Shown one piece after another: positions 38,993-46,907 of a stretch of 64,000 nucleotides of DNA (positions are counted from its first letter, which is position 1; each line of letters begins with the position of its first letter). The stretch is from an uncultured Pelagibacteraceae bacterium (lineage in GTDB: Bacteria > Pseudomonadota > Alphaproteobacteria > Pelagibacterales > Pelagibacteraceae). The notes under the pieces are model-generated. The model made no database searches. It was not told where the DNA came from and saw nothing but the letters and a program-made list of their open reading frames with translations. The stretch covers positions 1 to 64,000 of the forward strand of contig CACFSU010000003.1 in NCBI GenBank assembly GCA_902569055.1, written 5' to 3'. The position numbers were made by a program, and so were the translations under genes.

Positions 38993-39169
38993 ATGGGTTC
39001 AATTGATGGAGAAATTCCTGCTTTATGGTTTCTAATTAGTTCGATTGGTTTTGTTATTTTAACGTTTATACAATATAGAAATACCGGTAAGAGCTTTAAC
39101 ACAATATTTTTGTCTATAATGGCAATAATATTTTTTATTAGTTATATAATTTTACTAATCCCACACTAG
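38993..39169 (+). CDS. Small (58 aa) predicted two-TM membrane protein
   Basis: MGSIDGEIPALWFLISSIGFVILTFIQYRNTGKSFNTIFLSIMAIIFFISYIILLIPH*; not in the ORF track (<60 aa). Confidence 0.5.
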   Translation: MGSIDGEIPALWFLISSIGFVILTFIQYRNTGKSFNTIFLSIMAIIFFISYIILLIPH

Positions 39170-39254
39170 AAAAGTTATTAACATAACCTGTTGAAAAGTA
39201 AGTAAATTCAACAATTAAGTGATACCTTATTTAAAATAAATGTTGTAGAGTGAT

Positions 39255-39446
39255 TTTAACTTAAGAGGCAACTCTTAACTGGCCAGCCAGAGAAAGGCCG
39301 AGAGGCTCAAGTCTGGAGGGCAGAAAACCCTGTAAAGCAGCGCTAAACATATGGGGTGGTAGGTTCGGCGGTAGCGCATACAACGACGAACCATAAAATT
39401 CTGATCTTTACACCTTAAAAAGTGTAAAGTATCAGGGTTTTTTTTT
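39255..39446 (+). ncRNA. Candidate structured RNA of unknown family, ending in a rho-independent terminator (5' end approximate)
   Basis: GC-rich against AT-rich background; hairpin TTAAGAG-GCAA-CTCTTAA; CCAGA/TCTGG enclosing GCC-GAGA-GGC; AGGG/CCCT; pseudoknot GCGCTA/TAGCGC with GGTTCG/CGAACC; terminator at 3' end. Confidence 0.65.
39401..39446 (+). terminator. Rho-independent terminator
   Basis: CTGATCTTTACAC-CTTAAAAA-GTGTAAAG(T)ATCAG stem followed by GG and nine T. Confidence 0.9.
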
Positions 39447-45499: not shown

Positions 45500-45514
45500 T
45501 TTTCATTTTTTAAT

Positions 45515-45573
45515 CGGTAGGTATTTGAACTGTATTGTGCGCCTTACATTAAGTTAAAGCACTAAAAAAGGAG
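45515..45573 (+). promoter_or_regulatory. SAM-V riboswitch aptamer overlapping the metY Shine-Dalgarno
   Basis: CGGTAGGTATTTGAACTGTATTGTGCGCCTTAC...AAAGCACTAAAAAAGGAG; GTGC(45537-45540)/GCAC(45559-45562) pseudoknot next to AAGGAG. Confidence 0.88.
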
Positions 45574-45578
45574 TAATA

Positions 45579-46907
45579 ATGAGTACAAAAAGAAATAATC
45601 CAGAAACTATAGCCATACATGGTGGAGATTACAGAAGTGATCCTACAACAAATGCTGTTGCGGTTCCTATCTATAGAACTACTTCGTATCAATTTAATAG
45701 TGTTGATCATGCGGCAAACCTCTTCGCATTAAAAGAGTTTGGTAATATTTATACAAGAATAATGAATCCAACAAATGATGTACTGGAAAAAAGAATTGCT
45801 GAACTAGAAGGTGGTTTGGCTTGTTTAACAGTATCATCTGGACAAACAGCATCAGCTTTTTCAGTGTTAAATGTTGCTCAGGCAGGAGATAATATTATTA
45901 GTTCAACTGATCTTTATGGAGGAACTGTATCTTTATTCACTCATACTTTAAGTAAGCTTGGTATTGAAATAAGATATGCGGACCCAAAAGACCCTAAAAA
46001 CTTTGAAAAAACAATAGATGATAAAACTAGAGCTTTTTATGGAGAAACTTTACCTAATCCATATCTAAGAGTATTTCCAATTAAAGAAGTTTCTGACATA
46101 GGTCGAAAATATAACATACCTTTAATAATGGACAACACTGCTGCTCCAGTAATATGTAGACCAATAGAACATGGTGCTGCTGTAGTAGTGCACTCTCTGA
46201 CAAAATATATTGGAGGACACGGCACAGCTGTAGCAGGAAGTATTGTAGATAGTGGTAATTTTGATTGGACAGCAGATCCTAAAAGACAACCATTATTTAA
46301 TAAACCTGATGCTAGTTATAAAGGAGCTATTTGGGGTAAAGTTGTACCTGAACTTACGGGAGCTAATATTCCATTTGCAGTTAGAGCTAGAGTTTGCTTA
46401 TTAAGGGATTTGGGTTCAGCTTGTTCACCAGATAATGCTTTTGCCATTATTCAAGGACTTGAAACTGTTCCTTTAAGAATGAAACAACATTGTGAAAATG
46501 CTCAAAAAGTCCTAGAGTATTTAAAAAAACATAAAGAAATAACAAGAGTAATTTATTCTACTGAACATGATAAACCTCTAGCAGACAGGGCCAAAAAATA
46601 TCTCAATGGAGGAAATGGTCCAATGATTGGAATTGAATTAAAAGGTGGTTTTGATGCTGGTAAAAAATTTATAGAATCTTTAAAAATGTTTTATCATGTA
46701 GCGAATATAGGAGATGCTAGAAGTTTAGCTATTCATCCAGCTAGTACAACTCATAGTCAATTAAATGAAGAGGAGCTTGCTGCTTCAGGAGTTACTCAAA
46801 GTTATGTTAGATTATGTATTGGTTTGGAGCATATTGATGATATTATTGAGGATTTAGATCAAGCCTTAAATAAATCATCAAAAGGTGCTTTAAAAGCTGT
46901 CAGTTAG
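45579..46907 (+). CDS. metY: O-acetylhomoserine sulfhydrylase / aminocarboxypropyltransferase
   Basis: Cys/Met metabolism PLP enzyme: YTRIMNPTNDVLEKRIAELEGG; SLTKYIGGHGT; upstream SAM riboswitches. Confidence 0.94.
   Translation: MSTKRNNPETIAIHGGDYRSDPTTNAVAVPIYRTTSYQFNSVDHAANLFALKEFGNIYTRIMNPTNDVLEKRIAELEGGLACLTVSSGQTASAFSVLNVAQAGDNIISSTDLYGGTVSLFTHTLSKLGIEIRYADPKDPKNFEKTIDDKTRAFYGETLPNPYLRVFPIKEVSDIGRKYNIPLIMDNTAAPVICRPIEHGAAVVVHSLTKYIGGHGTAVAGSIVDSGNFDWTADPKRQPLFNKPDASYKGAIWGKVVPELTGANIPFAVRARVCLLRDLGSACSPDNAFAIIQGLETVPLRMKQHCENAQKVLEYLKKHKEITRVIYSTEHDKPLADRAKKYLNGGNGPMIGIELKGGFDAGKKFIESLKMFYHVANIGDARSLAIHPASTTHSQLNEEELAASGVTQSYVRLCIGLEHIDDIIEDLDQALNKSSKGALKAVS

Follow-up and report, generated by a model that had tools for sequence, protein, structure and literature searches.

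Introduction

What is encoded in the stretch of unusually GC-rich, non-coding DNA that lies between a small open reading frame (ORF) and an O6-methylguanine-DNA methyltransferase gene on a chromosome fragment of an uncultured SAR11 bacterium? Few cell types in the ocean are as numerous as SAR11 bacteria, which have few regulators. A sequence-only reading of the 64,000-nucleotide stretch of Pelagibacteraceae DNA analyzed here (the window) had proposed that this interval specifies an uncharacterized, structured non-coding RNA that contains a pseudoknot and ends in a terminator, and had offered three possible roles: a trans-acting RNA, a riboswitch or attenuator that controls the next gene, or an RNA belonging to a mobile element. 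We asked to which family the RNA belongs, whether it constitutes a gene in its own right and how it might act.

Results

The interval contains a full-length IMES-2 RNA

A cmscan search matched positions 39254–39394 (+ strand) to the Rfam family RF02035 (IMES-2) with a score of 150.9 bits and an E-value of 2e-39. The gathering threshold of the family is 54.7 bits, and the match covers model positions 1–141, which is the full length of the model. The order of the stems is identical to that of the IMES-2 motif, and structurally there is no difference. Because this match to a known family is both confident and full-length, the RNA is not the undescribed family that had been claimed; a hit of this kind was the very result that the sequence-only reading had named as refuting novelty. 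The IMES-2 family is marine, and its first description, reportedly from 2009, drew on environmental sequences from the sea. To our knowledge, no function has been assigned to it. In agreement with a marine origin, when a collection of genomes was scanned with a sequence pattern, all of the matches listed were sequences named as Pelagibacteraceae or Pelagibacterales. A squid genome paper names IMES-2 as probable environmental contamination (PMC6962438). We also considered four weaker motifs of 'Cand. P. ubique' (PMC2704228), which differ from the 39254–39394 RNA in description and neighbors. Neither ARAGORN nor the Rfam models detected a tmRNA at 39254–39446, and the Rfam scan yielded no match to 6S RNA (RF00013) within the 64-kb window. 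The feature is almost certainly a chromosomal IMES-2 RNA gene. The family is already known and finding it here is unremarkable as a discovery; what is new is modest, namely a conserved upstream box pair, four distinct gene neighborhoods and clean losses, which are described below.

The IMES-2 fold is strongly covariant and includes kissing loops

As the sequence-only reading had noted, the interval is non-coding and GC-rich, with a G+C content of 51% in 39254–39394 compared to 26% for the whole window. The predicted fold of 39254–39446 has a free energy of –67 kcal/mol, versus –45.9 ± 3.4 kcal/mol for shuffled sequences (z = –6.2). We examined 45 base pairs for covariation in 55 diverse homologues and found that 94.1% of the cells were paired and that both sides had changed in 32 of the 45 pairs. 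The resulting covariation score was 0.476, versus 0.190 for shuffles and at most 0.101 for slid versions. Thus, the IMES-2 structure, including its pseudoknot, is strongly covariant.

The individual elements all lie on the + strand. Hairpin P1 (39261–39278) is closed by a GCAA loop and is paired in 100% of cells. It is followed by P2 (39279–39291/39312–39323), which encloses P3 (39296–39299/39304–39307, with a GAGA loop); in this region (39279–39323), 12 of 15 pairs show both-side changes. All six outer pairs of hairpin P4 (39327–39357) have changed on both sides, and its loop carries GCGCTA (39340–39345), which pairs with TAGCGC (39372–39377) in the loop of hairpin P5 (39362–39392; 95.5% of cells paired). 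Six fully complementary versions of this kissing-loop helix occur among the homologues: GCGCTA/TAGCGC, GTACTA/TAGTAC, GTGCTA/TAGCAC, GCACTA/TAGTGC, GTTCTA/TAGAAC and GAACTA/TAGTTC. The pseudoknot of the full fold is thus, as predicted from sequence, a kissing interaction between the P4 and P5 hairpin loops. The conserved loops are occupied by the GNRA and kissing motifs.

Most of the stems that had been proposed from the window alone hold up under this analysis. The coordinates given for P1, for the CCAGA/TCTGG stem around GCC-GAGA-GGC, and for the interlocked GCGCTA/TAGCGC and GGTTCG/CGAACC helices are all correct, and covariation supports every one of them. The exception is AGGG/CCCT (39317–39320/39328–39331), which is paired in only 77% of cells and is probably not a real pairing. 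Pairing is more frequent in the alternatives, with GGGCAG pairing with CTGGCC in P2 (95% of cells) and ACCCTGTA pairing with TATGGGGT in P4 (97% for the six outer pairs).

The RNA is followed by a strong intrinsic terminator (39396–39446, + strand), as had been suggested. This element consists of a long A+T-rich hairpin (39396–39440; –18.3 kcal/mol) and a T-run that ends at 39446. A generic terminator scan did not list the 39396–39446 hairpin, probably because its stem is A+T-rich and has a bulge in it. Together with the fold and its covariation, the terminator bears out the general description of a structured, pseudoknotted non-coding RNA that ends in a terminator of its own.

IMES-2 travels as a self-contained cassette

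In the window, the terminator is followed immediately by a gene with an O6-methylguanine-DNA methyltransferase (MGMT) domain (PF01035; 39447–39725, + strand). On the other side lies a tyrosine recombinase gene (PF00589; 38008–38913, – strand), which is also found in genomes that lack IMES-2. Both genes are outside the RNA unit. Between the recombinase and IMES-2 is an ORF for a 58-residue hypothetical, membrane-like protein (38993–39169, + strand) that has no match in Pfam and that adjoins MGMT also in genomes without IMES-2.

We surveyed 190 IMES-2 loci and named the neighboring genes by Pfam. Approximately 90 loci follow mnmA, in most cases with a hypothetical gene converging from the other side, and 87 precede MGMT, with a recombinase or various small genes upstream. 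Another six are flanked by an SNase gene on one side and a convergent SRAP gene on the other, and three adjoin SelO, two of these with RmuC downstream. Thus, most mnmA settings and all SNase settings have a convergent gene downstream, and MGMT is a neighbor only in the genus of the window. Some loci appeared to be inverted relative to their neighbors, but this is an artefact because loci were extracted on the + strand of each contig. The promoter region accompanies the RNA across all four neighborhoods, and a hairpin and T-run equivalent to the terminator are kept in each of the four. A paired box, a promoter element, a compact RNA of ~141 nt with four hairpin domains and a kissing-loop pseudoknot, and a terminator form a self-contained cassette that stays together through relocation as its neighbors change. 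Because there are four neighborhoods, and the gene downstream is convergent in two of these, we conclude with high confidence that IMES-2 is a free-standing gene and not an MGMT riboswitch. The RNA has no conserved role in regulating MGMT.

IMES-2 was detected only in the Pelagibacteraceae and has been lost cleanly

IMES-2 was found in 98 of 147 sampled Pelagibacteraceae genomes, as a single copy in each, and these genomes represent 12 of the 14 genera sampled. None was detected outside the family in wider class and order samples. Searches with two exact patterns found no copies in IMG/VR viral contigs, and none was present among 50,697 phage records. A search with a covariance model of the 55 homologues detected nothing in 11 near-complete genomes of the window's own genus, and only one chance-level match in eight genomes of two further genera (g5 and g12). 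In two genomes (G003 and G105), whose MGMT proteins are 88–90% identical to that of the window, the small ORF is followed almost directly by MGMT and the RNA unit is absent. Mapping presence and absence onto an MGMT gene tree, which is rough because MGMT is short, requires four to five changes, at least two of which are forced by well-supported branches. IMES-2 is dispensable in some lineages and has been cleanly lost from the same site in close relatives.

A conserved box pair lies upstream of the promoter

The element CAAYNANNNAGTGATA (39209–39224, + strand), which includes a putative –35 sequence, is conserved in all four neighborhoods and lies 28–31 nt before the RNA. A putative extended –10 (TGnTnTnnn; 39241–39249, + strand) was recognized from conserved T and G positions in an anchored profile and is weak in the window copy. 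Transcription would start near 39254. Few other sites for CAAYNANNNAGTGATA were found, and the other matches that we examined were mostly in coding sequence, except for one beside groEL in two genomes. At loci L283 and L290, an intergenic promoter-like sequence (CAACAAATTAGTGAT, from position 1501) resembles the IMES-2 element, perhaps by chance. It is followed by what may be a short transcribed unit, made up of a possible tiny ORF (MWFVRIRLHKF...) and a terminator-like hairpin; this unit meets, in convergent orientation, the 3′ end of a gene with a GroEL-like C-terminus.

We aligned 84 diverse upstream regions on CAAYNANNNAGTGATA and searched the 52 bp beyond it for boxes. Nine-mers matching TTATNCACA with no more than one mismatch were present in 79 of 84 regions and perfect matches in 28, compared to 5.2 and 0.3, respectively, for shuffled-letter controls. 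The next 52 bp upstream contained such sites in 13 of 84 regions, none of them perfect, and the opposite strand in six, one of them perfect. The sites mostly form a head-to-tail pair with 9-bp spacing, and the distance from the pair to AGTGAT falls into two classes of 41.0 and 50.3 bp. No third box was found on either side in either class, and the shift between the classes is therefore real; it corresponds to about one turn of DNA, and equally to the length of one box. In the window, the tandem 9-mers lie at 39175–39192 (+ strand), where the copy is degenerate and consists of a near match, TTATTAACA, followed by a poor second box. The sequence TTATCCACA occurred only four times in 1.27 Mb of sampled DNA. 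In the same sample the best other site for the boxes scored 16.4, versus a median of 22.3 for IMES-2, and no clear regulon sharing the boxes emerged. From its conservation and position, the upstream box pair is very probably a regulated site.

The 9-mers resemble the DnaA boxes of bacterial promoters and origins in that they fit the TTATNCACA consensus, and their fixed placement in two spacing classes is what a DnaA-regulated promoter would display. DnaA boxes are not usually arranged head to tail 9 bp apart, however, and DnaA binding to the IMES-2 boxes is only predicted. A search for strict same-strand pairs of TTATNCACA revealed no cluster in 20 Pelagibacteraceae genomes, nor where the origin would be expected. 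Because strict pairs cluster nowhere else in these genomes, DnaA binding at the boxes stays putative; the same result implies that the SAR11 origin lacks the textbook pattern under a strict-pair search. We regard DnaA as a tentative candidate for the protein that binds the boxes. The IMES-2 locus itself was rejected as the replication origin, although at low resolution. Unlike the DnaA boxes of origins, it lies away from the GC-skew turn in the one genome that we examined closely (G022), where the turn is near 1.09 Mb and IMES-2 is at 1.211 Mb. The noisy skew of a second genome (G043) gave no support, and strict box pairs, as noted above, did not cluster in any of the 20 genomes.

Hfq, ProQ and 6S RNA are undetected in the Pelagibacteraceae

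HMM searches for Hfq (PF17209) and ProQ (PF04352) found neither protein in any of the 147 Pelagibacteraceae genomes, and control genomes were positive in both cases. 6S RNA (RF00013) was likewise detected in none of the 147, with positive controls, although the stricter filters used in large searches could miss divergent 6S sequences. In contrast, tmRNA was found in 116 of 147 genomes and in 50 of 53 near-complete ones. With Hfq, ProQ and 6S RNA undetected and tmRNA found, a chaperoned antisense sRNA is unlikely, and a compact protein-binding RNA is our best guess.

Discussion

Of the three roles first proposed for this RNA, that of a trans-acting RNA is the one that we favor. Regulation of MGMT through the terminator is suggested by the window, where the T-run ends right at the start codon of MGMT, and by the 87 loci that share this downstream gene. 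Nevertheless, a riboswitch should hold a consistent same-strand position 5′ of a gene or pathway, and at the other loci the RNA and its terminator are kept with a convergent hypothetical gene, a convergent SRAP gene or RmuC next to them, while relatives without IMES-2 retain MGMT directly after the small ORF. Such control is highly improbable. The neighboring tyrosine recombinase and the polymorphic presence of the RNA would suit a mobile-element RNA served by that enzyme, but each of the two also occurs in the absence of the other. Moreover, each genome has one copy at a genus-specific position, and the exact-pattern searches of IMG/VR and the search of the phage records were empty, so that we consider a mobile-element RNA very unlikely indeed.

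IMES-2 could also act by direct antisense pairing with mRNAs without a known chaperone. A single-copy, free-standing gene with its own promoter and terminator and a patchy distribution across species is reminiscent of many sRNAs, and chaperone-free pairing is compatible with the failure of the HMM searches to find Hfq and ProQ, which speaks against assisted pairing. Nearly all of the conserved unpaired stretches, though, are the GNRA loop, the kissing loop or a short linker, which leaves little accessible seed, and conservation of the structure over 12 genera goes beyond what is usual for antisense sRNAs; that neither Hfq nor ProQ was found also counts against an antisense role. We judge this explanation somewhat unlikely. 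The RNA might instead replace, in this lineage only, a housekeeping RNA such as 6S, to which it is similar in length and in being a free-standing small RNA gene, and which is undetected in the family. This is quite doubtful, as many near-complete genomes without detectable 6S RNA also lack IMES-2, and the IMES-2 fold consists of several hairpins and kissing loops rather than a long rod with a central bubble. A substitute for tmRNA faces a similar objection. The alphaproteobacterial two-piece tmRNA (RF01849) contains pseudoknots, as does IMES-2, but a separate tmRNA coexists with IMES-2 in most of the surveyed genomes that carry it.

For the steps that lead from promoter to function, we infer that IMES-2 has a promoter of its own, at which it would be transcribed by the housekeeping RNA polymerase. 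A dedicated DNA-binding protein would act upstream of the –35 element, and the sequence of the boxes makes DnaA the leading guess for this protein. Once folded, the RNA would work in trans; the likeliest mode is that it binds or sequesters a protein, and antisense pairing assisted by Hfq or ProQ is less likely. On balance, IMES-2 is probably a compact RNA that is transcribed independently, is controlled by a dedicated regulator acting upstream and works in trans by binding a protein. The protein-binding mode, taken by itself, is a plausible but tentative part of this proposal. A more speculative and rather unlikely idea is that IMES-2 is a regulatory RNA linked to replication or growth, and that its transcription is set by DnaA, or its active ATP form, on the tandem boxes. 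If true, IMES-2 would report or control replication initiation in slow-growing SAR11 cells that have no detectable Hfq, ProQ or 6S RNA.

IMES-2 is one of the orphan structured RNAs of SAR11. Recognizing it as a free-standing, dispensable and very probably regulated gene, with a DNA site of its own upstream, limits where its function has to be sought, and close relatives that differ in whether they carry the RNA can serve as a natural comparison. SAM-V and other marine riboswitches are compact structured RNAs of the same genomes, but in contrast to these, IMES-2 is not tied to a single downstream gene. The window itself contains a SAM-V riboswitch (RF01826, 80.6 bits) at 45510–45576 (+ strand), directly upstream of an ORF (45579–46907) whose 442-residue product looks like an O-acetylhomoserine sulfhydrylase. 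SAM-V upstream of such a gene is a known SAR11 arrangement.
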